Shown piece by piece: positions 19,363-31,940 of a DNA stretch of 64,000 bases (position 1 is the first letter of the stretch; each line of letters begins with the position of its first letter). The notes beneath the pieces were generated by a model. It was not told where the DNA came from. It saw nothing but the letters and a program-made list of their open reading frames with translations, and made no database searches. Source of the DNA: Rhodovibrio salinarum DSM 9154 (lineage in GTDB: Bacteria; Pseudomonadota; Alphaproteobacteria; Kiloniellales; Rhodovibrionaceae). A program made the translations under genes and the position numbers. The DNA lies in assembly GCF_000515255.1 (NCBI RefSeq), contig NZ_KI911559.1, positions 1,091,548-1,155,547 of the forward strand, read 5' to 3'.

Positions 19363-20586
19363 CTAGCCTTTCTTCAGGAAGCCGAGTAAGGCGCGTTTAC
19401 GCGTGCGTGGCGCGCCGACGAGGTCGACCAGCAGAGTGCGCAGGTCGGCCAGCAGCTTGGCCTTGGGCGCGCTGTGACTGAGCGTCCGGCCGGCCATCGC
19501 CGACTTGGCGACGTTCTCCGGATCGAAGCTCAACTGCGCGGCCAAGTCACTTTCCAGCTCTTTGTCGAACTCGCGCGCGTCGACGTGGCCGGGTGCCTGC
19601 TTGCCGACCCGGTTAGCGACGACCCGGACGCGCAGCTTGCCGTCCTGTTGCTTGGCCAGCCGGATCAGCCGGTTACAGTCGCGCAGGCCGGGCAGCGACA
19701 GGTCGGTCACGATCACCAGGTCGGTGACTTGTTCCAGCAGGTCGGGCTGCTGGCCCAGCAGATGGCGCGGCAGGTCGGCGACCAGAACGTCGCGGCTTTC
19801 GCGCAATTTGGCGAGCAGCTGGGTGACGGCTGTGCGCGGCATCACGGGGACGTCGTCGACCGCCTCTTCCGCAGCGAACACGCTCAGGCGCGCATCCGCC
19901 TTGACCGCCAGATTGTCGATCATGCTGTCGTCGACCCGTTCGGGATCCTCCAGCGCCTCGCGCAGGCCGGCGGCGGGCTGCAGGTCCAGCGACAGCGCCT
20001 GGCAGCCGTATTGCAGGTCAAGGTCGAGCAGGCCGGTCTGACGCTCCCGCTCGCTGGCGATCAGCCAGGCCAGGTTGCCCGCGACCGTCGAGGCGCCGAC
20101 GCCGCCGCGCGCGCCGACCACCGCGATGCAGCGCCCGCGTCGGACCGGCGCCGCCTGGCCAGCGGGGCGGCTGGTTTCCGCGCGCGCGACCGCGGCGGCG
20201 AGCTGTTGGGTGTGGACCGGCTTGACCAGGTAGTCGCAGGCGCCGGCATCCATCACCCGGCGGAACATCGCGACGTCGTTCTGCGTACCGAGCGCGATCA
20301 CCTTGCTGCCGGCCGCGAGTTCGCCGAGGCTGGCGGCGATGTCCTCGACATCCTCCATCCCCGATAGGTCGACCAGCAGGATATCCGGCGCTGCCACGAC
20401 GCCCAGCTGTCGTAGCGCTGCGCCCAGGCCGCCGCGCTGCACTTCGGCGGGCGGCCAGCCGCGCTTGCCGGCCAGTTGCACGGCCGCGGCGTAGGTGGTG
20501 TCGTCGGAAACGAACGCGCCGAACGGTTCGCGCGCATCCAGATCCGGATCGGCGGAGAATACCGACTGGTCTTCGGCCAGGCTCAT
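19363..20586 (-). CDS. cpaE: Pilus localisation ATPase CpaE/TadZ
   Basis: 407 residues: an N-terminal receiver-like domain (about 20-135; ILLVDLSGM, ALGTQNDVAMFRRVMDAGACDYLVKPV) followed by a MinD/ParA-like domain. The P-loop reads VVGARGGVGASTVAGNLAW: the deviant-Walker Lys is Arg and the second P-loop Lys is Ala, as in other CpaE/TadZ proteins with weak or no ATPase activity. Further motifs are LLDLDLQYG and VLVADLPRHLL. CpaE positions the Tad machine, at a pole in Caulobacter. The start overlaps the cpaD stop by 4 bp. The C-terminus is basic (RTRKRALLGFLKKG), possibly for membrane contact. Confidence 0.93.
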   Translation of the reverse strand: MSLAEDQSVFSADPDLDAREPFGAFVSDDTTYAAAVQLAGKRGWPPAEVQRGGLGAALRQLGVVAAPDILLVDLSGMEDVEDIAASLGELAAGSKVIALGTQNDVAMFRRVMDAGACDYLVKPVHTQQLAAAVARAETSRPAGQAAPVRRGRCIAVVGARGGVGASTVAGNLAWLIASERERQTGLLDLDLQYGCQALSLDLQPAAGLREALEDPERVDDSMIDNLAVKADARLSVFAAEEAVDDVPVMPRTAVTQLLAKLRESRDVLVADLPRHLLGQQPDLLEQVTDLVIVTDLSLPGLRDCNRLIRLAKQQDGKLRVRVVANRVGKQAPGHVDAREFDKELESDLAAQLSFDPENVAKSAMAGRTLSHSAPKAKLLADLRTLLVDLVGAPRTRKRALLGFLKKG

Positions 20587-21332
20587 TGCGCCATCCCCTC
20601 CTTGCTGCCGTTGCCAGTGGGCCGGTAGTTGCCGCTGCTGGCTTCCTTGTCGGCGGCGACATTGGCGCCTCTGTCGTCGTTCAGGAACGAGGGGGTGTAG
20701 CTGCGGCCGTCATGGTAGTCGCGCACCGGGATGGCCGTGCGGGCGCCGGACACCGGGCCCATCTCCCGGCCGCGCAGCAGGTCGCGCGGGTTCGCCACCA
20801 TCAGACCCAGGTTGCGTCGGTCGGCGCAGCCGAAGTTGCTGGACGGCAGGTTCGAGTTGTCGCTGATCCGGGTGCGGCTATAGTCCGGGCAGTCCGGCAG
20901 CACGACGTGGTAGCGCGCGATCCGCACCAGCACGTCGCCGTCGCCCGGTCCGGCGGTATCCAGCAGCGGGTCGCTGGCGCGCGGCGCGAAGCCGCGCTGA
21001 CGCAGCAGTCGGACGACCTGTTGCCGGCGTCGTTCGGCGATGTCGCCCGACGTCGGTGCCGCCGCGACCACCACGGTGGCCTGCCGGTCGGCGCCGCTGT
21101 CGCGCAGGAAGCGGTCGAGCGCGGCCCGTTCACCCGCCGACAGGTCGCTCGTATCGCCCGGGAAGGCGACGTCGTGGCGGTACAGCGTGCGCTCGACGCC
21201 CAGCTTGTGGGCCTGCGGACCGACCGCGTCCGGCGGGGTGACGGGGTAGCCGCAGCCGGTGAGCGCGGTGGCGGCGGTCAGCACGGCGCTTACGCCGACC
21301 AAGCACAAGACGCGGGGGAAACGAACGGTCAC
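20583..21332 (-). CDS. cpaD: Pilus lipoprotein CpaD
   Basis: 249 residues from GTG 21332, with ribosome site AGGGAG about 8 bp upstream that overlaps the cpaC stop region; a longer frame runs back into cpaC and is not used. The signal peptide ends in a lipobox, LTAATALTGC, so the protein is a lipoprotein. The CpaD family pattern is visible in LDRFLRDSGAD, VVVAAAPTSGDIAERRRQQV, DCPDYSR and the C-terminal SNFGCADRRNLGLMVANPRDLLRGREMGP (shown in part). It acts as a periplasmic or outer-membrane assembly factor for the CpaC secretin. Coupled to cpaE by a 4-bp overlap. Confidence 0.9.
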   Translation of the reverse strand: MTVRFPRVLCLVGVSAVLTAATALTGCGYPVTPPDAVGPQAHKLGVERTLYRHDVAFPGDTSDLSAGERAALDRFLRDSGADRQATVVVAAAPTSGDIAERRRQQVVRLLRQRGFAPRASDPLLDTAGPGDGDVLVRIARYHVVLPDCPDYSRTRISDNSNLPSSNFGCADRRNLGLMVANPRDLLRGREMGPVSGARTAIPVRDYHDGRSYTPSFLNDDRGANVAADKEASSGNYRPTGNGSKEGMAQ

Positions 21333-21345
21333 GGGCCAGCTCTCC

Positions 21346-22728
21346 CTATTCTTCCAACATGAAGCCGACGGGGCCGGCCAGTGACTTGCCGTCCAGCTCG
21401 TTCCGGGCGGCCATCCGCGCGCGGCTGTTCTCGCCCTGCATCCGGCCGAAGAAGATTCGCTCGATGTCATCCGGCGGCAGCAGCTCGTCGGTCGGCGCCG
21501 CCAGCTGCCGGGTGGAGACCGGCTTGACGATGTAGGGGGTGATGATGATCGCCAGCTCGGTCTCGCCGCGCTTGAACTTGTCGGACTTGAACAGCGCGCC
21601 CAGGATCGGCAGGTCGCCGAAGCCCGGCAGCTTGCGCACCTGCTGGTTCTGGGTGTTCTTCAGCAGGCCGGCGATCGCGAAGCTCTGACCGCTGGCAAGT
21701 TCCACGGTGGTGGAGGCGCGACGGGTGTTGATCGCCGGAACGGTGATGTTCTGGAACCGGAAACCTTCGTTGAAGTTGAGCTCGCTCACTTCCGGTGCCA
21801 CCGCCAGGGAGATCTGGCCGTTGTCCAGCAGGGTCGGGGTGAACTCCAGCTGGACGCCGAACTCCTTGAATTCGACGGTGATCCGGTCGTCGGTCTCGGA
21901 CACCGGGATCGGAAACTCGCCGCCCGCCAGGAAGGTCGCCGTTTCCCCGGACATCGCCGTCAGGTTCGGCTCGGCCAGCACGGTGATCAGGCCTTCCTGG
22001 CTCAGCACGTCGAGCGTGCCGGTCAGGCTGTCGTTGCCCGAGATGAAGTTGCCCATGGCGCTGTACGGATTGCCCGAGGCGAGGCCGCCCAGGCCGCCGC
22101 CCGCAAGACCGATCGCGCCATCGCCGCCGTTGAGCATCGCCTGCCAGTCGACGCCCAGTTCCTTGGTCAGTTCCCGGGCCACTTCGGCGACGCGGACCCG
22201 CAGGTTGATCTGCGTCGGGCCGGTCACCTGAAGGCGGTTGATCACGTTCTGCTCGCCCACAAACCGGGCGGCAAGGCGGCGTGCCTGCTCGGCCGCCGAC
22301 GGGGAGGGCAGGCGGCCCGACAGCAGGATGGCATCGCCGATCGCGCGCACCTTAATCGGCTGGGCCGGTGCAAGGTCGGCAAGGGCCCGCTCCAGGGCGG
22401 CCAGGTTGTGCTGCACGACCAGGCGTTCGCTCATCACTACCTGGTCGTTGGCGTCGACGGCGAACATCGTCGTCTCGCCCGGATTCTTGCCGAACACGTA
22501 CACCAGCCGGGGCGACTTGACCTGCACGTCGGCGATTTCCGGATCGGCGACGAAAACGCTGTTCACCGGCCGCTCCAGGCGCACCAGCACGCCCTGGTCC
22601 CGGTTCAATGCCACGCTGTTGTCGCCGGTATCGACGACTTCCGCGGCGCTGGCGGGGTGCGCCGCCGGCAGGGCCAGGGCAAGCGCGAAGCACGCCGCGC
22701 GCATCGGGCGGGAGAGGGGGAATACCAT
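21346..22728 (-). CDS. cpaC: Pilus secretin CpaC/RcpA
   Basis: 460 residues. A signal peptide (about 1-28, ends HPASA) is followed by the RcpA-type N domain (VLVRLERPVNSVFVADPEIADV), a BON-like segment (IKVRAIGDAILLSGRLPS) and the secretin C-domain with LITVLAEPNLTAMSGETATF and LPGFGDLPILGALF. It forms the outer-membrane ring through which the Flp pilus passes. The tail (about 420-460) after TPYIVKPV is hydrophilic. It lies 6 bp after cpaB and 13 bp before cpaD. Length and motifs match the family. Confidence 0.95.
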   Translation of the reverse strand: MVFPLSRPMRAACFALALALPAAHPASAAEVVDTGDNSVALNRDQGVLVRLERPVNSVFVADPEIADVQVKSPRLVYVFGKNPGETTMFAVDANDQVVMSERLVVQHNLAALERALADLAPAQPIKVRAIGDAILLSGRLPSPSAAEQARRLAARFVGEQNVINRLQVTGPTQINLRVRVAEVARELTKELGVDWQAMLNGGDGAIGLAGGGLGGLASGNPYSAMGNFISGNDSLTGTLDVLSQEGLITVLAEPNLTAMSGETATFLAGGEFPIPVSETDDRITVEFKEFGVQLEFTPTLLDNGQISLAVAPEVSELNFNEGFRFQNITVPAINTRRASTTVELASGQSFAIAGLLKNTQNQQVRKLPGFGDLPILGALFKSDKFKRGETELAIIITPYIVKPVSTRQLAAPTDELLPPDDIERIFFGRMQGENSRARMAARNELDGKSLAGPVGFMLEE

Positions 22729-22734
22729 CGGCCG

Positions 22735-23607
22735 CTATTCCTCGATCTCGATGCCGGTCATCTCGCTGCCGCGCACGACTACGACGGTGGGGCCGCGCTT
22801 GCTGCGCGGAGCGGACATGACGCGGCTGATTTCGCTGTCGGTGGTGAAGGTCGGTTGGGCGGGCGCTTCCGGGTCGCCCTCCCGGGCGATCGGGCGCAGC
22901 GACAGCGACAGGTCACCCAGCTTCTGGGCCAGTGACAGCTTTTCCGCCTCCTTCGGGTCGACCTCCAGGGTGGCGGTCTTGGCGACCACCCGCTCGCCCT
23001 CGACGTCGTCGGTGCGCTGGTCGAGCGCGAGCACCCGGATATCGGACAGCACGGTCTCGCTCGCCTTGCGTTCGTTCCGGCTGTCACCGTTCTGCCGGAT
23101 GCTGTGCGACAGGATCACGTCGACCCGGTCGCCTGGAAAAATCAGGCCGGAGATGCCGCTGGCGGCGTTTACCGGCACCGACAGAGCGCGGTGGCCCTCG
23201 CTCAGCATCGCCGCGAGGAAGCCCCGGTCGCCGGGGCGCACGACCCGGGCGTCGGTGACCGGCTCGCCGTTGACCATGCTGGCGCGCACCACCGCGCCCA
23301 GCAGGTCGTCGCGTCCGCTCAGCGCCTGATCCTCACTGCCCTGGCCGCGAACGACGTAGGCCTCGAGCAGTCCGTCCTCCGGCCAGGCCTGCCAGCGCAG
23401 ATGCTCCGATTTCAGGATGGTGCCGGCCTTGAGCGCGCCGTTGGCGACCAGAATCCGGGTCTCCTCCGGGACGTCGACCGGCGCCGGCGCCACGGCAGCC
23501 TGGGTCGCCTGACCCTGCTGCTGTTGCAGCCAGTTGTTGGTCATGACCGCGGCTCCGCCGGCAATCGCCAGCGATAGGGCGGTCAGCACGATGACGCGTG
23601 GGCGCAT
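22735..23607 (-). CDS. cpaB: Flp pilus assembly protein CpaB/RcpC
   Basis: 290 residues. An N-terminal membrane anchor (VIVLTALSLAIAGGAAVMT) is followed by a SAF-type domain (ILVANGALKAGTILKSEHLRW), then VPVNAASGISGLIFPGDRVDVILSH, the conserved core of the CpaB family, and DIRVLALDQRT. It is periplasmic and thought to link the secretin with the inner-membrane machine. The C-terminus ends in a basic-to-acidic patch (SKRGPTVVVVRGSEMTGIEIEE in outline). Second pilus biogenesis gene after cpaA. Confidence 0.94.
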   Translation of the reverse strand: MRPRVIVLTALSLAIAGGAAVMTNNWLQQQQGQATQAAVAPAPVDVPEETRILVANGALKAGTILKSEHLRWQAWPEDGLLEAYVVRGQGSEDQALSGRDDLLGAVVRASMVNGEPVTDARVVRPGDRGFLAAMLSEGHRALSVPVNAASGISGLIFPGDRVDVILSHSIRQNGDSRNERKASETVLSDIRVLALDQRTDDVEGERVVAKTATLEVDPKEAEKLSLAQKLGDLSLSLRPIAREGDPEAPAQPTFTTDSEISRVMSAPRSKRGPTVVVVRGSEMTGIEIEE

Positions 23608-23632
23608 GTTGCGGCCTCCTCGGAAAATCGGA

Positions 23633-24139
23633 TCAGGCGGCCGTCAGGCCATAGATGATCCACAAGCCGCCGGCCGCGAGGGCGACGCCGTAGGGGACGC
23701 TTTCTCCCATCGCGTCGCGGCCGCCGGTTTGGGGACCGGCCAGGATCGGCCCGTTGAACCAGTGCGCGCGCGGGCTGGTGCGGGTAGCCAGGATCAGAAG
23801 GGACAGTCCGGCCCCGGCAACTGCGGTGATCACCACGAAGCCCGCGAGGTCGGCGCTGCCTGCCCACAGGCCCAAAGCCGCCGCCAACTTGACGTCGCCA
23901 CCCCCAACCGCGCCGCGCGCGAAGCCGATCAGGCCGAGGGCGAACAGAGCGCTTGCGACCGCTGCGCCGGACCACCAGGGGCCGGGCAAGCAGCCGGCCG
24001 CCAGAGCGATCGGATAGAGCAAGCCGATCGCGACGACGGCGGTGTTTGGGATGCGCCGGCGCGAAACGTCTGCCCAGGCGCACCAGGACACCAGGGCGGC
24101 CAGCGACACCAATAACAACAAGAATATCGGATCGATCAT
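23633..24139 (-). CDS. cpaA: Prepilin peptidase CpaA/TadV
   Basis: 168 residues, short as usual for TadV-type peptidases without the N-methylation domain. Six or so hydrophobic stretches are present. The two catalytic aspartates are in the motifs WADVSRRRIPN (about 23) and GGGDVKL (about 80), and PYGVALAAGG is the C-terminal family signature. It cleaves the Flp prepilin and the TadE/TadG-type pseudopilins of this locus. It is separated from flp by 76 bp that hold a strong hairpin, so its expression is probably lower than that of the pilin. Confidence 0.94.
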   Translation of the reverse strand: MIDPIFLLLLVSLAALVSWCAWADVSRRRIPNTAVVAIGLLYPIALAAGCLPGPWWSGAAVASALFALGLIGFARGAVGGGDVKLAAALGLWAGSADLAGFVVITAVAGAGLSLLILATRTSPRAHWFNGPILAGPQTGGRDAMGESVPYGVALAAGGLWIIYGLTAA

Positions 24140-24406: not shown

Positions 24407-24783
24407 AGCTGTGGCTTCTGTCGAACGGCGTGGTGAACTTTGATGCTTGCCCGTAAAAATAAAATTAATGTACAGAATGAATATTTGTGTTGTATTCTAA
24501 AATATAATCTAATTGAATTTTATCAGCATCAGGATATTCTGCGCTTATATATACAACCTTATTGTGTACAAGGTGTTCCGTATGCATTTCATCCCAATCG
24601 TGCGCGCGCCCAAGGGCATCTCTAGCGACATGCAAAGTCCTGGTGATTGGGGAATACTTAGGTCGAATGCAGGATTTAACAGCCTGTTCACACCGTCGTT
24701 CGTAGCGTTGTCCGGCCTTGCGGGCGGCGGTCCCACCGCCGGCATTTCTCCCACGATGGCCGCAGCAGGAGCGTTCCGCAGCC
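24407..24783. promoter_or_regulatory. AT-rich divergent promoter zone flp / herA-like
   Basis: About 375 bp; 24440-24600 is markedly AT-rich inside GC-rich DNA. It separates divergent flp (minus) and the HerA-like gene (plus). Short open frames here have no ribosome site or coding signal. No clear CtrA box (TTAA-N7-TTAA) was found. Confidence 0.4.
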
Positions 24784-26379
24784 ATGACCAGCCAACTGGG
24801 CCGCGTCGTCGCGGTCGCTGGCGCCGGCGTTACCGTCAGCTTGACCCGTGACGAACACGGCGCTTCCGCCGCCCAGATCCAGGCGCTCGTGCGCGTGGAG
24901 GCGGCGCGGTCCGTCGTCTTCGCCACCGTGCGCGAACTGCGGGTCGACAGTCGCGCTGCCGGCGAGACGCAGATCGCCGAACTGGAGCTGATCGGGGAGC
25001 AGGCACGGATGCCGGACGGCGGCCTACACGCCTTCCAGCGTGGTGTGGTGCACTTCCCTGCTCTTGGCGATGCGGTCTGCGAGGCGGCGGCGGAGGATTG
25101 GCGGCGGGTTTACATGCCGGATACGGGCGCCAAGCAGATGCGTCTGGGCGATCTGGACCGCGACGGCAACCTGCCGGCGATCGTGTTGTCGGACGAGTTG
25201 TTGTCGAAGCATTTCGCCATCCTGGGCACCACCGGCAGCGGCAAATCCTGTTCGGTCGCGGTGCTGCTGCGCCAACTGCTCGATGGCCATCCGAACGGCC
25301 ACGTCATTCTGCTCGATCCGCACAGCGAGTATCAGGCGGCCTTCGGCGACCGGTGCGTCCTGGTCGATCCGCAGTCGATCTCGTTGCCCTACTGGCTGCT
25401 CAATATGGAAGAGATGATCGAGCTTTACTGCAGCCCGGAAGCAGCGCAGCGGGAGCTCGAAGCCGATATCCTGAAGCGCGCGGTGATCGCCGCCAAGCAA
25501 GCCTTTCACGGGAGCGAGCAAACCCACATCACCGTCGACACGCCCGTTCCTTTCCGTTTGACGACGGTGCTGCAGCACATCGACCGGGAGATGGGGCAGA
25601 TCAACAAGGGCAGCGACAGCCTGCCGTTCCTGCGGCTGAAGGCGCGGATCGAGACGCTGCGGTCGGATTCCCGCTTCGCCTTCATGTTCGGCCAGATCTC
25701 GGTCCAGGACACGATGGCCGACATCCTGTCCCGCGTGCTTCGGATCCCGGTGGCGGGTAAACCGATCACGATCGTCGATCTATCGGCCGTGCCGGTGGAG
25801 ATCGTGGACGCGGTCGTGTCGTTGCTGACACGGATGGTCTTCGACTTTGCCGTCTGGGCCGGTCCGAACGCGGAGGTGCCGATCCTGCTGGTCTGCGAGG
25901 AAGCGCACCGCTACATCCCGAACGACCCCGACAGTGGCTTCCAACCAACCCTCAAAGCGCTCTCCCGGATCGCCAAGGAAGGTCGGAAGTACGGCATCTC
26001 CCTCGGTCTTGTAACCCAGCGGCCGAGCGAGCTGTCGGAGACCATCCTGTCGCAATGCGGCACCCTGTTTGCACTGCGCATGTCGAACGACCGCGACCAA
26101 GCGTTCGTGCAGCGCGCGCTGCCGGATGGCGCGCGCGGTCTGTTCGCCGCGCTGCCGGCGCTCAGCAACCGCGAGGCCGTCGTGGTCGGGGAGGCGGCGG
26201 CCGTGCCGATGCGCATGCGGTTTGCCGAATTGCCGGCAGAAGCCCGGCCGCGGGCGGGGCAGGCCAACTTCGCCGCCGCCTGGCAGAAGGACGATCCCGG
26301 TCGCGAGGTGCTGGATGGCGTGATCACCCGCTGGCGTCGGCAGGACCGCAGCGCTACGGGGCGGATGGCGGCGGAGTAG
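24784..26379 (+). CDS. HerA-like hexameric ATPase (HAS-barrel + FtsK/HerA core)
   Basis: 531 residues from ATG 24784 (AGGAG 12 bp upstream). The N-terminus (GRVVAVAGAGVTVSL) resembles the HAS-barrel of HerA helicases. The core has HFAILGTTGSGKSCSV (Walker A, about 148), HVILLDPHSEYQ, ILLVCEEAHRYIP (Walker B with tandem acidic residues, about 367) and GISLGLVTQRPSELSETILSQC with its conserved Gln. HerA pumps DNA and usually pairs with NurA; no NurA lies here. Free-standing bacterial HerA-like ATPases also occur in defence and DNA repair settings. The flanks are the pilus locus and an AT-rich spacer, so no partner can be named. Confidence 0.88.
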   Translation: MTSQLGRVVAVAGAGVTVSLTRDEHGASAAQIQALVRVEAARSVVFATVRELRVDSRAAGETQIAELELIGEQARMPDGGLHAFQRGVVHFPALGDAVCEAAAEDWRRVYMPDTGAKQMRLGDLDRDGNLPAIVLSDELLSKHFAILGTTGSGKSCSVAVLLRQLLDGHPNGHVILLDPHSEYQAAFGDRCVLVDPQSISLPYWLLNMEEMIELYCSPEAAQRELEADILKRAVIAAKQAFHGSEQTHITVDTPVPFRLTTVLQHIDREMGQINKGSDSLPFLRLKARIETLRSDSRFAFMFGQISVQDTMADILSRVLRIPVAGKPITIVDLSAVPVEIVDAVVSLLTRMVFDFAVWAGPNAEVPILLVCEEAHRYIPNDPDSGFQPTLKALSRIAKEGRKYGISLGLVTQRPSELSETILSQCGTLFALRMSNDRDQAFVQRALPDGARGLFAALPALSNREAVVVGEAAAVPMRMRFAELPAEARPRAGQANFAAAWQKDDPGREVLDGVITRWRRQDRSATGRMAAE

Positions 26380-26806
26380 GGGAAGAGTCCCAGTGTTGTG
26401 CAGCCACGCCGCGAAACGTTGTCGTTCGGAACGAGGTCTCAGTCTCAGACTAGAATTAATATAATATATATTATTCATGACGACCCGCATATATACGCTG
26501 GGTGATTCTTGTCCATTTATTTGAAGTTTTTTTCATAGTGAGATTTTGTATATCCATCTTGGTAACGAGAGTTGACCGAGGATGGGTGTCAGATATATCG
26601 GCCAATTTCCTTCTATTTTTCAGGTAATGGCAGAATGCCCAATCTAGCACTTATTAAATGTCCCAGAGATGCTACCTCTTCAGGTTTAGGGATTTTTCTG
26701 GAGGGAGATGATACTTGTATAAATCATAGTGTTAGAAAATAGATATCTGTCGCCCTGGGCGGTGTTAGCTCGTTAGTTTTAACTATAGGCAGCGCAATGG
26801 TTGGCG
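26380..26806. other. AT-rich non-coding spacer
   Basis: About 430 bp. Most of 26440-26760 is AT-rich, in sharp contrast to the flanking genes. It contains a perfect 14-bp palindrome ATAATATATATTAT (26461-26474). No open frame with ribosome site and coding signal was seen. Likely the promoter region of the PAS_5 gene or a remnant of acquired DNA. Confidence 0.4.
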
Positions 26807-27355
26807 ATGCTTGAAGGCGACCTGAAAGCCCTCGTGGATCTGTGGCAGGAAATTCGTGACCCAGATCGAAAAATTCCGAGGCGTTCCGCCTTCGACCCAA
26901 TGCGCCTGCGCAGCCGATTGGCACAAGTTCATTTGCTTGAGTTCGATGGGCCGGCGTGCCTGATCTACCGTCTATCGGGCACGGCCGAGGTCGCGCGCCT
27001 GGGCGAGGATCCGAAGGGTAAAGACTGCTTCACCTTGGTCGATGCCGCGGCGGGGGATTACCTGCGTTGCAACATGCACGCGCTGCTCTTTCATCCCACC
27101 GGGGTGCTGGTGACGACCGAGGAGATCTACGCCGACGGCACCCGAACGCCGACACGGTATGTCGCCTTACCATTGCGCGATGAAGCGCGCCAACGCGATC
27201 AAGTCATCTCAATCGTTGCCGCGACGGCGGGAAGGCAGCCCACTGGCGTCCTCTCACCGCAACCCTCCGAACGGCCTTGGTACGATTATGTGATGACGGT
27301 TGAGCCGGTTGATCTCGGTTGGGGCGTTCCAGCCATTCCGACCTACAGGAGATAG
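26807..27355 (+). CDS. PAS_5-domain protein
   Basis: 182 residues from ATG 26807; a TTG at 26801 is also in frame and neither start has a strong ribosome site. The fold pattern LVDLWQEIRDPDRKIPRRSAFDPMRLR followed by VHLLEF, YRLSGTAEVARLGEDPKGKD and RYVALPLRDEA matches the PAS_5 family, common in Rhodospirillales and usually a single-domain protein of unknown ligand. The usual RxxGT strand is represented by IYRLSGT. It stands alone between an AT-rich spacer and a convergent gene pair. A second PAS_5-like protein is encoded at 30691. Confidence 0.8.
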   Translation: MLEGDLKALVDLWQEIRDPDRKIPRRSAFDPMRLRSRLAQVHLLEFDGPACLIYRLSGTAEVARLGEDPKGKDCFTLVDAAAGDYLRCNMHALLFHPTGVLVTTEEIYADGTRTPTRYVALPLRDEARQRDQVISIVAATAGRQPTGVLSPQPSERPWYDYVMTVEPVDLGWGVPAIPTYRR

Positions 27356-27809: not shown

Positions 27810-29180
27810 TCAGGATTGTGGGGTAGTGCGTACCACCAGGCAGGCCTGGTCGCGTGCTTTCAGGGCTTGGCAGAGCTGTTTCGGCCGACTGGCATCTGCG
27901 AACGGGCCGCTGCGTAGGCGATAATAGGTGCCTTTGTCCGGCACCTCGGTTTTCTGAACGGAGGGGGACAGATCGGCCAACAGGGGGGCGTGCGCGTCCT
28001 GCAGGCGCTGCCACTCCTTCTTGGCTGCGGGGCGCGCGCGCAGGGACGCGATCTGCACCCAGTAGCGGGGGGCGTTGGCCGCAATCGCCTGATCGCGCGC
28101 AGGGTTGGGCGAGAAACTGGCGGGGACGATGCGGCCTTGCGCCGGCCCGGTCGAATTGGGATCGCTTACGTTTACGTGAGCATCCGTCGTAGGCTGCAGG
28201 GGCATTGGCATGGCTTCGGCGACCGGTGCGGCCGGCGTTGCCGTCTGGTCTCTTCCGGTGGTGTCCGTGCCCGAGTGAGCATCCGTGGCGGCCTCGGCCG
28301 TCTGGGTCGTGTCTGTTTCAGGTTCGGGCGTTTGCGGGGCGGTGGGCGCAGACGCCGCGACGTCCGTAATCGTCCGGGCGGCGCGCAGTGCACGGTAGTA
28401 CGCCAAATTACGTTCCACGGCATTGGATCCGAGATCGGCGTCACTGGCCGCCGCGGCGTCATCCATCTCACCGGCCAAACCATAAACCAGAGCGAGGTTT
28501 TGGCGGGTCCGGGCGGTCGCTTTGGGATCACGCGCGGCATCCTCCAGCACGCGGATCGCCGGCTTGTGCTGACCGGACAGCGCAAGCGACAGGCCCAGGT
28601 TGGTGCGTAGCGCGACGTTCATGGGCGCGAGTTCGAGGCCCTTGCGGTAAACCGTCTGGGCATCAGGGTGCCGGCCCAGCATGTCCAACGCCACCCCTTT
28701 TGCGACATAGGGGCGTGTGTCGGCGGCTTCCTGCGTGATCAACCGGTCGAACTGCTCGATTGCCGCCTCTGGCCGGTCCGCCGCCAGCAGCGCTTTCCCC
28801 AGGCCGTAGCGCGCGTCAACCGACCCGGGCGCGTAGGTCAGCGCGCGGCGGTAATGCTGCGCGGCTTCCGCAGGGTCGCCGCTGCGGTAGTTGGTACGGC
28901 CCAGGCCCAGGTGTCCCGCGGGCGCTTCCGGAAAGCGGGCGGCGATCTTGGCGTAGATGTCGCGCGCGGCGGTGACGTTGCCGCTGGATTCCGTGCGCGC
29001 GGCGAGCCGGAGCATGGCTTGCAGCGAGGTTTCCGCTGCGACCTGATCGGCGGCTGTCGTCGCGGTGGACTGTTGCGGGGTGCTGGCGCAACCCGCCAAT
29101 GCGAGGGATGCCAGCAGGGCCAGGGACGAAGAAAAGCGTGCGCGGCGATCTCTAACCCGGGAGCGTGGTGCTGGGACCAT
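27810..29180 (-). CDS. TPR-repeat lipoprotein with C-terminal SPOR domain (TadD-like)
   Basis: 456 residues from ATG 29180 (GGAAAG about 9 bp upstream); a GTG at 29258 would add a leader with no ribosome site. The lipobox LASLALAGCAS marks a lipoprotein. TPR repeats fill about 50-280 (GHLGLGRTNYRSGDPAEAAQHYRRAL, in part; VAKGVALDMLGRHPDAQTVYRKGL). A Thr/Pro/Ala-rich linker follows. The C-terminal 80 residues form a SPOR domain (YWVQIASLRARPAAKKEWQRL, YYRLRSGPFADASRPKQLC, in part) that would bind denuded peptidoglycan. TadD lipoproteins are TPR proteins of the Flp system, so this is a candidate TadD carrying an unusual SPOR tail; it is unlinked to the main locus by 3.4 kb. Confidence 0.82.
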   Translation of the reverse strand: MVPAPRSRVRDRRARFSSSLALLASLALAGCASTPQQSTATTAADQVAAETSLQAMLRLAARTESSGNVTAARDIYAKIAARFPEAPAGHLGLGRTNYRSGDPAEAAQHYRRALTYAPGSVDARYGLGKALLAADRPEAAIEQFDRLITQEAADTRPYVAKGVALDMLGRHPDAQTVYRKGLELAPMNVALRTNLGLSLALSGQHKPAIRVLEDAARDPKATARTRQNLALVYGLAGEMDDAAAASDADLGSNAVERNLAYYRALRAARTITDVAASAPTAPQTPEPETDTTQTAEAATDAHSGTDTTGRDQTATPAAPVAEAMPMPLQPTTDAHVNVSDPNSTGPAQGRIVPASFSPNPARDQAIAANAPRYWVQIASLRARPAAKKEWQRLQDAHAPLLADLSPSVQKTEVPDKGTYYRLRSGPFADASRPKQLCQALKARDQACLVVRTTPQS

Positions 29181-29538
29181 ATCGAACTGCTTTCCACTTG
29201 TAATCGGAGCCAGGCTGGCGGATGGCGGCGGCGATTGGTACGCAGTCGTCGGACGCACCGGTTTCAGGTCGTGCAGTCTGGCGTGAAAGCGTTAATAAAT
29301 AGTATTTACTGGTGCATTGCCATGAGATTGCCCAATTAACGATCCATTCAGATCCGTGTATCATTGTATCTCTGAGAATATATCAAATAAAATGTGTTTG
29401 CTAGAAATTGAATCTATATACCCAGAGAAAGCGTTTAGATTTCCACACGAATTCCGACTGCCTGCGACGACACGCAACGCCGAACGGCGAACGCGCATTT
29501 GCGCGTGGGACGCCAAATTCTAGGCAGGAGTAGACGTC
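29181..29538. promoter_or_regulatory. Divergent spacer with two adjacent dyads ahead of parA-like gene
   Basis: About 360 bp between the divergent lipoprotein and ParA-like genes; 29280-29440 is AT-rich. Directly upstream of the ParA gene are two adjacent perfect dyads: CGCCG-AA-CGGCG (29480-29491) and ACGCGCA-TT-TGCGCGT (29493-29508), ending about 30 bp before the start. They are good candidates for an operator or a small parS-like site bound by the cassette's own DNA-binding protein. Confidence 0.5.
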
Positions 29539-30246
29539 ATGCACGTGATCACCTTCGCCTCGCAGAAGGGCGGCTCCGGCAAAACCACGCTCGCTGGCCA
29601 TATGGCCGTGCAGGCATCGCGTGCTGGTGCGGGCCGGGTTTGTCTGATCGACACGGACCCGCAAGGTAGCCTGTCCGACTGGTGGAATGCCCGCGCCGAG
29701 GAGACGCCGGAGTTCGTCCATACTGCGATAGCGAGCCTGGCCGACGACCTGGCTGGGCTGGAAGGCCTGGGTGTGAATCTGGTCGTGATCGACACACCGC
29801 CGGCGATCACCGAAACGATCGAGCAGGTGATCGCGCTCTCCGATCTGGTTGTGATCCCAACCCGGCCAAGCCCGCACGACCTGCGCGCCGCCGGCGCCAC
29901 GGTCGCGCTTGTGGAGGCGGCTGGCAAGCCGCTGGTGTTCGTCGTCAATGCGGCTACCCAGCGGGCCCGGATTACCGGCGAGGCTGCGGTCGCGCTGTCG
30001 CAGCACGGCACGGTGGCCCCGACCACCGTGCACCAGCGTACCGATTTCGCCGCCAGCATGATCGACGGCCGCACGGTGATGGAGCTCGCCAAGGCGCAGA
30101 AGTCGGCACAGGAGATGAGCGATCTCTGGGGCTATCTCGCCAACCGGATTAGTGGTGACCGGCAGACTTTCCTGGGTGCCCACGCCGCTGCTCGCCCGGC
30201 CAAGTCGCCCATGGTGCCGACGCGTGCGGCGGGGGCGGTCGGCTGA
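29539..30246 (+). CDS. Orphan ParA/MinD-type ATPase
   Basis: 235 residues from ATG 29539 (AGGAG, 8-bp spacing). Full deviant Walker A: FASQKGGSGKTTLAGHMA, with both lysines. Walker A' is LIDTDPQGSLSDWW and Walker B VVIDTPPA, then VVIPTRPSPHDLRAA, as in ParA proteins that segregate plasmids, chemosensory arrays (ParC) or protein cargo. No parB gene is adjacent; the next gene encodes a small protein with a possible ribbon-helix-helix core and could be the partner. No replication gene is present, so plasmid origin is not supported. Likely positions a cargo or partitions a locus. Confidence 0.88.
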   Translation: MHVITFASQKGGSGKTTLAGHMAVQASRAGAGRVCLIDTDPQGSLSDWWNARAEETPEFVHTAIASLADDLAGLEGLGVNLVVIDTPPAITETIEQVIALSDLVVIPTRPSPHDLRAAGATVALVEAAGKPLVFVVNAATQRARITGEAAVALSQHGTVAPTTVHQRTDFAASMIDGRTVMELAKAQKSAQEMSDLWGYLANRISGDRQTFLGAHAAARPAKSPMVPTRAAGAVG

Positions 30247-30292
30247 ACCGTCGGTTAATGACCCTTGAGTCCCTTGTTTGGAGAGCCGTGCC

Positions 30293-30694
30293 ATGACCGT
30301 GGCTTCACTCAACGCCCGCCTGCTCGCGCGCAAGGGCGATGCCCGCCCGGCGCCGATCGACAGTGATGAAGACCGTGTACGGCCACCCGTCTGCCGCATG
30401 TCGGTGGGCGTAACCGAGTCCCTCTTACATAACGCCTCTCTACCTCACGAGCCCGGAACGGAAAATCCGCACGCGCGCGTCCGGGTCTCGCTGCGTTTGA
30501 CGGGCGAGCGGCACCGCCGGTTGCGGCTGGCGTCTATCCATCTGAACGCTTCGTTGCAGCAGATCTTGACCCACGCGCTCGACCAGTATCTGGCGCAACT
30601 GACCCCTGCGTGCCCTTGTATGGGGGAGGCTGGGGCCGGCAGCGGGACCGACGACTGCCTGGCTGCGACGTCGCAAGCTGGGGCACGCGCGTGA
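30293..30694 (+). CDS. Small putative DNA-binding partner of ParA (RHH-like core)
   Basis: 133 residues from ATG 30293, with GGAG 9 bp upstream. The N-terminal half is polar. Residues about 63-102 read VRVSLRLTGERHRRLRLASIHLNASLQQILTHALDQYL (outlined): a basic strand, then two helices, the pattern of a ribbon-helix-helix dimer. It starts 46 bp after the ParA-like gene and its GTGA stop overlap couples the third gene. Small RHH proteins are the usual second component of type Ib ParA systems (ParG, Omega). It ends in a Cys- and Gly-rich tail. Assignment is by pattern and context. Confidence 0.62.
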   Translation: MTVASLNARLLARKGDARPAPIDSDEDRVRPPVCRMSVGVTESLLHNASLPHEPGTENPHARVRVSLRLTGERHRRLRLASIHLNASLQQILTHALDQYLAQLTPACPCMGEAGAGSGTDDCLAATSQAGARA

Positions 30695-31395
30695 GCCGGC
30701 GCGTGCGGCAGGCAGATACGGCACAGAGCCAGCCCGAGTTGCCCCCTGCGGCGTCGTTGCTGAGCGTGCCGATCTTCCGCGCAGCCGCCCGGCAGCAGGT
30801 CACCCCCACGAGGGTCGGGACCCCTGCGGAGGCGACAAGCACCGATGCGCCACTGTCTACCGGTGCCCGTGCCGAAACAAGCGCAAGCGACACCGTCGTT
30901 GGGGGCATGGAGACGTCCGCTGCGGGGCTTGAGCCGGAGCAGCCAGCATCTGGCTCGAAGCCGGTCGCGACAGGACCGGAATATCGGCGTCTGCTGGACT
31001 ATTGGCGTGCACTTGCGCGCCAGGGACGGGTATCTGTCGAGAAGCTGGATGGGGACATGATCGCCGCGCGCTGGCCCTATGCGATGCTGTTACGCGTGCC
31101 GCCAGGTGGGATCGTTGATATCATCCAGGTGTTTGCACCGGCCTGCGACGCGAATGGAACGGGTGCCGAGACGGGGGTGTGCGCCCAGAACCCCTTCGCC
31201 CGGGATCAGGCCTCGCAGATCTCCAGTTGGGTGCTGCAGGTGGCTCAGGATGCCGTCGGCTGTCATCAGCCCAGCCGCCATCAGGAAACCTTTTACCAGG
31301 CGGGCCGCGCTCGGTGTTTGCTGGCCGAACTGTTGCCCTGCCACGTGGAAGGCGATCGTGCCGCGTATCTACTGCTGCACCTACAGGACGCGTGA
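30691..31395 (+). CDS. PAS_5-like protein, third gene of ParA cassette
   Basis: 234 residues from GTG 30691, whose GTGA overlaps the previous stop by 4 bp. The first 90 residues are a low-complexity Ala/Thr/Glu linker. Then EYRRLLDYWRALARQGRVS and DGDMIAARWPYAMLLRV follow the N-terminal helix-strand pattern of PAS_5 proteins; the central loop (DANGTGAETGVCAQNPF) is unusual, and the end YQAGRARCLLAELLPC plus AAYLLLHLQ gives the last strands. Translational coupling suggests it works with the ParA and RHH-like proteins, perhaps as sensor or cargo adaptor. Distant homology by eye only. Confidence 0.55.
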   Translation: MSRRVRQADTAQSQPELPPAASLLSVPIFRAAARQQVTPTRVGTPAEATSTDAPLSTGARAETSASDTVVGGMETSAAGLEPEQPASGSKPVATGPEYRRLLDYWRALARQGRVSVEKLDGDMIAARWPYAMLLRVPPGGIVDIIQVFAPACDANGTGAETGVCAQNPFARDQASQISSWVLQVAQDAVGCHQPSRHQETFYQAGRARCLLAELLPCHVEGDRAAYLLLHLQDA

Positions 31396-31550
31396 AGACG
31401 GGCCGCGGTTTTCAGCGTGCAGCCGGGACGTGCGCGATCGGTCTGGAAAACTGCATTCGCAGCGATGTGGCTTGACGGCGCTTGGCCGGGTCTTTACACG
31501 CAAATCTGAATGTAAAAGTTTTAAGACACACGCGGGCACACGCCGATCCG

Positions 31551-31940
31551 ATGAGCTACTCCCTCGAGCAGCGCCGCGTTTACCTCGACATGATCGACCA
31601 GGTGGGCCAGCGGTGGCTGCATCTGTTCCGCGGCGATCCTGAGATGTACTCGGCCGCTTACTGGGATCTGTTGACCAGTTTGTGGCGGGCGGGGCAGCCG
31701 ATGCGCAAGACCGATGCGCTGGCGGCGATGCATGGCATCCGCAGTGCGCACACCGCTGGCAAATACGTCGACGCGGCGATCTCGCGCGGGCTGATCTTGG
31801 AAGAGGATAATCCGCGCGACGCCCGTTCCAAGGTCCTGCGGCTCGCGCCGCAGACGCAGGAGCGCCTCGACGCGTTCTTCGAGGAGGCCGTCGGGGATCT
31901 GGTGGACGCCGCGCGGCGTGTCGAGGCGCACCAGGATTAG
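31551..31940 (+). CDS. Small winged-helix (MarR-like) protein
   Basis: 129 residues from ATG 31551; a TTG at 31482 is in frame but less likely. An N-terminal helical region (YSLEQRRVYLDMIDQVGQRWL) is followed by a DNA-binding-like core: LLTSLWRAGQPMRKTDALAAM, then AGKYVDAAISRGLILEEDNPRD with a wing (SKVLRLAPQTQERLD). The pattern is that of MarR/phage-type winged helices that read out as a regulator. No ligand pocket can be inferred. It follows the ParA cassette by 155 bp on the same strand and may control it. Confidence 0.68.
   Translation: MSYSLEQRRVYLDMIDQVGQRWLHLFRGDPEMYSAAYWDLLTSLWRAGQPMRKTDALAAMHGIRSAHTAGKYVDAAISRGLILEEDNPRDARSKVLRLAPQTQERLDAFFEEAVGDLVDAARRVEAHQD

Follow-up and report, generated by a model that had tools for sequence, protein, structure and literature searches.

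A chromosomal ParA cassette of Rhodovibrio salinarum, a putative positioning module related to type Ib plasmid partition

Introduction

What would a ParA ATPase position on a bacterial chromosome when no parB gene lies beside it? The question is raised by a cassette in a 64,000-nt stretch of Rhodovibrio salinarum DSM 9154 (hereafter the window; positions 1,091,548-1,155,547 of the genome's single contig of 4,176,524 bp), in which a ParA gene is followed by genes for a small protein of ribbon-helix-helix (RHH) type and a PAS_5-like protein. The cassette had been read as a chromosomal positioning or partition module of a kind not yet described (the original prediction). The three genes held up as members of a candidate module, but two dyads upstream, a gene at 31551 and a second PAS_5 gene that had been grouped with them did not. 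Sequence comparisons make it probable, in our view, that these genes form a module by which a chromosomal ParA positions cargo and which shares ancestry with type Ib-like plasmid partition systems; a short peptide of the adaptor would dock on ParA, and the adaptor's C-terminal domain would pick the target.

Results

A short peptide accompanies one ParA subfamily

The parA gene (29539-30246, plus strand) is complete, as had been noted, and encodes 235 amino acids with a deviant Walker A motif, KGGSGKT, at residues 10-16; the Walker A and other residues are at least 95% conserved across 95 chromosomal and plasmid ParA relatives. Like the ParA proteins of type Ib partition systems, it is small and lacks an N-terminal DNA-binding domain, and its closest match in the PDB is ParF of TP228 (3.6e-19), with ParA 5u1g also among the best. 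It scores 176.8 bits against the NCBIfam ParA_partition model NF041546, under the curated cut-off of 180. The canonical chromosomal ParABS arrangement, with ParB beside ParA, is not seen here: as the original prediction held, no parB adjoins the cassette, and the genome's one ParB above cut-off is far from the window, at G000:383925. Some ParA match is found in 34 of the 38 genomes of the order, and Rhodovibrio sodomensis has a ParA 88% identical to that of the window in the same gene arrangement.

The next gene (30293-30694, plus strand, ATG at 30293) encodes the RHH-type adaptor, 133 amino acids composed of a putative docking peptide at residues 1-21 (30293-30355; MTVASLNARLLARKGDARPAP), a variable linker and a C-terminal RHH-type domain at about residues 60-102. 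Residues 1-23 are identical in R. sodomensis and the linker differs. The peptide, which we call motif A, extends over about 25 residues in the wider family with the consensus A-x-L-T-x-x-L-L-A-R-K-G-x-A-x-P; conservation across 64 aligned copies is 98% for the K and the G, 95% for the A and 94% for the P, figures somewhat favored by the selection pattern, which demanded K/R and G/S.

The occurrence of motif A follows that of the ParA subfamily. Strict motif A was present no more than 360 nt past the stop codon of parA at 63 of 82 subfamily loci (ParA of at least 45% identity, at least 400 nt of downstream sequence) and at none of 16 more distant ParA loci, and a six-frame reading of 852,930 bp gave four further places. 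These counts are independent of our automatic partner picker, which returned no partner at five loci and wrong frames at a few. A profile of 35 peptides was also run through whole genomes. In 38 relatives it gave 28 matches at E ≤0.05, 25 of them in genes immediately downstream of a subfamily parA and the other three at E 0.022-0.048; many of these loci had fed the profile, and the independent part of the result is the rarity of matches elsewhere. In a sample of 299 genomes of the phylum, with at most 28 candidates scored per genome, so that matches away from ParA might be missed, 15 genomes matched at E 0.001. Fourteen of these were exactly the genomes having a ParA at E <1e-80, with the peptide just downstream, and nine of the 14 had contributed no peptide to the profile; the fifteenth (3.5e-4) had no ParA at this level, and two genomes with a ParA of 45-47% identity gave no peptide match. 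By these comparisons, the peptide is strictly linked to the ParA subfamily.

The domain behind the peptide is exchanged

We then asked what follows the peptide in 90 partners (80 chromosomal and 10 from plasmids), labeled with simple profiles made from these same partner proteins. RHH domains were assigned to 52 (47 chromosomal, 5 plasmid), SPOR to 20 and DUF2336 to six; of the 12 unlabeled partners, five are plasmid proteins that appear RHH-like by eye. A Pfam check on two partners recovered SPOR in the SPOR-type L057, where an apparent single membrane helix (by eye) lies between peptide and domain, and DUF2336 in the DUF2336-type L122. At the sequence level, then, one peptide stands in front of different C-terminal domains. 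In an approximate ParA tree the RHH types and plasmids are basal, with the SPOR and DUF2336 types nested among them; because many supports are low, a direction from RHH to SPOR and DUF2336 is likely but not proven.

At 11 loci having a subfamily ParA and a SPOR-ending partner, a mipZ gene lies just beyond on the opposite strand, and in several genomes this ParA is a second subfamily copy. DUF2336-type proteins follow ParA at six loci, and each of these has MipZ on the opposite flank, an arrangement that hints at a division role for DUF2336.

The RHH-type adaptor and the PAS_5-like third protein

The window's second protein had been described as RHH-like. Scanned on its own against Pfam it matches RHH_10 with an E-value of 0.028, below cut-off, and single Pfam RHH families recovered at most 13 of 30 RHH-type partners at E 0.1. 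A profile built from these 30 partners, chosen from the available loci, matched 13 PDB sequences at E ≤1 (best 0.0043; ParG 0.037; omega 0.13), all weakly; all except RbcX, that is 12 of the 13, we take to be RHH proteins by name or family. The assignment is thus good for the partner family and weak for the window's single protein. As in type Ib systems, a small RHH protein would directly follow parA, with support from these weak family-profile matches. The tail carries the conserved RKG of motif A, and residues 20-58 have a predicted local distance difference test score (pLDDT) below 50 in a model made from a two-sequence alignment. A contig search with the protein returned a single locus, in the one named relative R. 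sodomensis (64% identity over 117 residues). In the 38 genomes of the order there were 16 matches in 14 genomes; by coordinates, 13 lie directly after a close ParA, and the remaining three have E-values of 3e-5 to 0.004. We set aside an NCBIfam hit between the tail and a sactipeptide family (E 0.0013), since its 18.6 bits fall under the cut-off of 42.

The third gene (30691-31395, plus strand, GTG start, 234 amino acids) is joined to the second by the GTGA overlap already reported, at 30691-30694. Its product has motif B (PAASLLSVPIFR) near the N-terminus, then a variable linker and a PAS_5-like domain. The neighborhood search that had been proposed for the trio found it at 21 loci including the window, out of 80 subfamily loci with the next gene extracted; these loci were chosen by motif B and by eye, and one locus (L097), where the next gene has a motif-B-like stretch without the YW pattern, was left out. 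Recurrence at 21 of 80 loci argues that this is not a chance neighborhood. The family shares the invariant S-L of motif B, which is kept in R. sodomensis, conserved tryptophans and a PAS_5-like C-terminus. The window's protein has no Pfam match on its own, but PAS_5 (PF07310) is matched by 10 of the 21 members (best 9.5e-7). In hhalign comparisons with an alignment of nine of the 11 PAS_5 proteins of this genome (L160 and L162, being partial, were omitted), the whole family aligned with 98.4% probability (6e-15) and the window's subgroup of four with 91.7% (7.9e-7, 44 columns). A profile search of the PDB with the family gave no match, and an AlphaFold2 model of the window's third protein from its single sequence was uninformative (43.7). 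In several SPOR-type partners, the chain that bears motif A also contains ASLLPFALH, a stretch resembling motif B. We infer that motif B may be a second ParA-docking peptide.

Two further genes had been counted with the cassette. The open reading frame at 31551-31940 (129 amino acids) exists, but it has only a DUF1376 match at E 0.21 and the proposed winged helix was not recovered. The upstream PAS_5 protein is genuine (26801-27355; Pfam PAS_5, 6.7e-14), and PAS_5 matches occur 11 times in this genome. Neither gene has a counterpart beside the pair in the 29 other loci searched, and we excluded both.

Distribution and plasmid relatives

Pairing a ParA with an RHH protein has a known precedent, the type Ib arrangement of plasmids, and relatives of this same pair occur on plasmids. 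We found 46 plasmid records with a ParA at E <1e-40. In all ten that were opened, a small open reading frame with the peptide (by eye) comes right after ParA, KG.A.P being complete in nine, and in five of the ten the part of the record examined includes an annotated replication gene. Plasmid and chromosomal ParAs are intermixed in the tree. The non-plasmid form was found at E <1e-45 in 40 of 289 genomes of the class. In f20, a family other than that of the window, 79 genomes from as many genera were searched and 57 had it, with one ParA match each at E <1e-60 and 62-70% identity; 13 of the 57 matches are located past 1 Mb of a contig. Such a spread, old as well as wide, is not explained by a recent plasmid insertion. 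The maintenance of a plasmid, which type Ib systems serve, does not apply to the window, whose locus is on the single contig, though plasmid relatives exist.

Neighboring genes

The gene divergent from parA (27810-29258, minus strand) encodes a tetratricopeptide repeat (TPR) and SPOR protein and is a recurrent neighbor of the pair. Pfam SPOR is above cut-off in this gene and in scanned neighbors from five other loci, and below it in that of L053 (19.2 for a cut-off of 21); the R. sodomensis protein is 79% identical over 240 residues, and this genome has six SPOR matches in all. A separate SPOR gene is present from -2.5 to +3.9 kb at 14 of 47 RHH-type loci (in four families), none of six DUF2336-type loci and none of 16 controls, and at 20 other loci SPOR is within the partner itself. 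MipZ is found from -3 to +6 kb at 5 of 47 RHH-type, 11 of 20 SPOR-type, 6 of 6 DUF2336-type and 0 of 12 unlabeled loci and at 0 of 16 controls. These figures count loci rather than independent events: some of the loci had gone into the SPOR and MipZ models, and related genomes each counted in full. It is established that septal peptidoglycan is bound by SPOR domains and that MipZ sets the position of cell division. Read as locus counts, the searches link SPOR and MipZ to the wider family, which probably works on division or envelope targets; the same may hold for the window.

A run of Tad pilus genes (19363-24139, minus strand) offers a possible functional context. It comprises cpaA (23633-24139), cpaB (22735-23607), cpaC (21346-22728) and cpaD (20583-21470), and ends with a receiver-ParA protein in the place of cpaE (19363-20586, minus strand). 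In four genomes of family f8 (L051, L053, L054 and L055) the trio, TPR-SPOR, a receiver-MipZ fusion, an Flp pilin gene and the Tad genes are contiguous. The fusion in L053 (6480-7901) matches PF09140 (3.6e-87) and Response_reg (4.2e-27). It and its homologues in L045, L051, L054 and L055 are located after the ParA trio, and the fusion precedes the Tad genes in all four f8 genomes. A gene for a methyl-accepting chemotaxis protein adjoins the ParA cassette at L043, L047, L051 and L054 (identified by Pfam in L051 and by BLAST in the others). Between the Tad genes and the cassette, the window also encodes a HerA-like ATPase (24718-26379; DUF87, 1.3e-39), whose best NCBIfam match is anti-phage HerA, at 289.6 bits for a cut-off of 850.

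The upstream region

The original prediction pointed to two adjacent dyads upstream of parA, in what is the divergent intergenic region (29259-29538), and treated them as a possible binding site of the RHH-like protein. They exist, 2 bp away from where they had been put, together spanning 29478-29506: dyad 1 at 29478-29489 has 5-bp arms and dyad 2 at 29491-29506 has 7-bp arms, each with a 2-nt center. When the 128 bp were resampled 2000 times under a first-order Markov model, an adjacent pair of this kind arose in 0.45% of cases. In R. sodomensis, with its 88% identical ParA, the stretch is an alignment gap. The 14-base core of the larger dyad has exactly one copy in the genome, and at no more than one mismatch it has nine places compared with 12 for a reversed control. 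A conserved centromere was therefore rejected, and because the dyads are missing from R. sodomensis we do not count them in the system; their role is doubtful. Within 282 bp we found just one 9-nt pair of direct repeats, and an upstream centromere of direct or inverted repeats, as type Ib systems have, was not seen.

R. sodomensis retains a block near 29285-29315, GCGTTAA.AAA.AGTATTTACT, which may serve as a promoter or as the site of a regulator.

Discussion

Proposed mechanism and rival explanations

Parts of two published accounts (PMC7993993, PMC10241942) describe partners of ParA/MinD ATPases as modular proteins that bind and stimulate the ATPase via a basic, disordered N-terminus, and for type Ib RHH proteins stimulation with an arginine-finger tail is described in part of PMC5016525. 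Because known partners act via basic N-termini, we interpret motif A as a candidate ParA-docking peptide, the RHH domain as a putative DNA holder and the PAS_5-like protein as a possible second adaptor. The N-terminal peptide of the RHH protein would dock on the ATP-bound, nucleoid-associated ParA dimer and trigger hydrolysis, and the RHH domain would hold a DNA site. The PAS_5-like protein would add another partner, equipped with a short peptide of its own, motif B, and with a domain for sensing or targeting. Through repeated tethering and release, ParA could then position the cargo held by the adaptors. In this genome the most likely target would be either a structure of the envelope or the pole (the TPR-SPOR lipoprotein, possibly the Tad pilus) or the chromosomal locus tied to it.

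Several observations weigh against a positioning module of this kind. Strict motif A is missing at 19 of the 82 subfamily loci; some of these have a degenerate form by eye (e.g., HVVRKGA in L049 and L050), and none was found when L125 was looked at. The structure prediction that had been suggested left the fold of the adaptor undecided: AlphaFold2, run as a monomer on the two-sequence alignment, gave a single long helix at residues 71-103 in place of strand-helix-helix, with a mean pLDDT of 55.8, and Foldseek with this model returned nothing at E 0.001. A pairwise search with the third protein reached 5 of 38 relatives, one hit not being beside a subfamily ParA, so that the wider third-protein family depends on alignment, motif B and inspection by eye. 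No conserved repeat array was found upstream of parA. The sharing of loci between the SPOR and MipZ models and their counts belongs here as well, and MipZ is absent from the 3 kb upstream and 6 kb downstream of the window's ParA. Tad matches were confined, in 30 loci tested, many with short flanks, to the window and the four f8 genomes. Finally, two genomes of the window's own family (G001 and G002) have neither Tad nor TPR-SPOR beside the pair in the flanks covered, which slightly lowers our confidence.

Three other explanations deserve weighing. The pair could be what is left of a plasmid that integrated into the chromosome, a normal type Ib pair with no cargo at present, and both the plasmid relatives, half of those opened having a replication gene in the stretch shown, and the mixing of plasmid and chromosomal ParAs in the tree would agree with this. 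We regard it as the least probable reading, given the single, 62-70% identical match in each of 57 f20 genera, 13 of them past 1 Mb of a contig, the retention of ParA, peptide and RHH domain in R. sodomensis although linker and dyads have changed, and the PAS_5-like third gene at 21 loci. A reading in which nothing is positioned, the RHH protein acting mainly as a repressor of parA and the TPR-SPOR gene under modulation by ParA, is also improbable. The divergent promoter region with its conserved block lies directly upstream, and part of PMC5016525 describes RHH centromere-binding proteins that double as repressors; the same peptide, however, is found on SPOR and DUF2336 partners without a labeled RHH domain, and DNA binding is for this reason not the common function.

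A third possibility, unlikely but with more in its favor, is that ParA and the RHH protein act like VirC1-VirC2, delivering a substrate, either DNA or protein, to a Tad apparatus at the pole. The window's ParA contains a Pfam VirC1 domain above cut-off (48.7 bits for 24), and the window has Tad genes; in the f8 genomes such genes are contiguous with the trio. Its score against the VirC1 equivalog PRK13849, however, is far under the cut-off (46.2 for 313 bits), and of the 30 loci tested, many with short flanks, only these five have Tad matches. The positioning module remains our preferred reading. A broader scenario can be put forward tentatively, as something that may well not be the case: a plasmid partition ParA may have become a general positioning motor on alphaproteobacterial chromosomes, its partners tagged by a fixed N-terminal peptide, and domain swaps (an RHH domain for DNA, a SPOR domain for septal peptidoglycan or DUF2336 for another target) may have retargeted it to division and the polar envelope beside MipZ, with the window's version adding a PAS_5 partner and serving the TPR-SPOR and Tad locus.

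The peptide identifies a ParA partner from sequence alone, and its bearers form a natural series of differing domains behind one peptide. Many ParA/MinD ATPases are called orphans, according to part of PMC10241942, as their partners are too diverse to recognize. Because the peptide marks partners with differing domains, the proposal that a ParA adaptor consists of a basic peptide plus any binding domain becomes directly testable by domain swaps. The family further suggests that Alphaproteobacteria have a positioning system next to MipZ and SPOR proteins, and that a plasmid segregation device has been reused to place other cell contents.

Comparison with known systems

The claim that the module had not been described needs to be narrowed, given the type Ib precedent for the ParA-RHH pairing. 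Our searches of open-access literature, which left subscription papers and preprints outside, gave no description of the peptide family and its interchangeable C-terminal domains, of the PAS_5-like gene in third place or of the repeated presence of SPOR and MipZ genes nearby. The VirC1-VirC2 system of Ti plasmids has a ParA-like ATPase with the same Pfam domain, and the partner of VirC1 is an RHH protein; our cassette differs in its low VirC1 equivalog score, and no T-DNA or type IV secretion context is seen near it. SegA-SegB of archaea likewise joins a chromosomal ParA-like ATPase to an RHH partner, as described in part of PMC9178275. In PomX-PomZ, McdA-McdB and PpfA-TlpT a charged N-terminal peptide is grafted on a cargo-binding domain; the portions of PMC7993993 and PMC10241942 that make this comparison cover unrelated partners of different ATPases, whereas here one ParA subfamily is paired with one recognizable peptide and differing domains. 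MopJ of Caulobacter, polar according to part of PMC4432633, has a PAS_5-type domain, and our third protein differs from it, bearing motif B in an extended N-terminal region and having no NCBIfam MopJ match. The closest likeness is to type Ib partition (ParF-ParG of TP228, delta-omega of pSM19035), in which the gene for a small ParA without an N-terminal DNA-binding domain precedes that for a small RHH protein whose N-terminal tail is basic. The cassette departs from it in its location on a 4.18-Mb contig, its PAS_5-like third gene, its highly conserved peptide and the lack of a conserved upstream repeat array in our searches. The centromere and the plasmid role do not fit, both proteins do, and the module, which would work in the manner of a type Ib pair, is best called a chromosomal variant of it.

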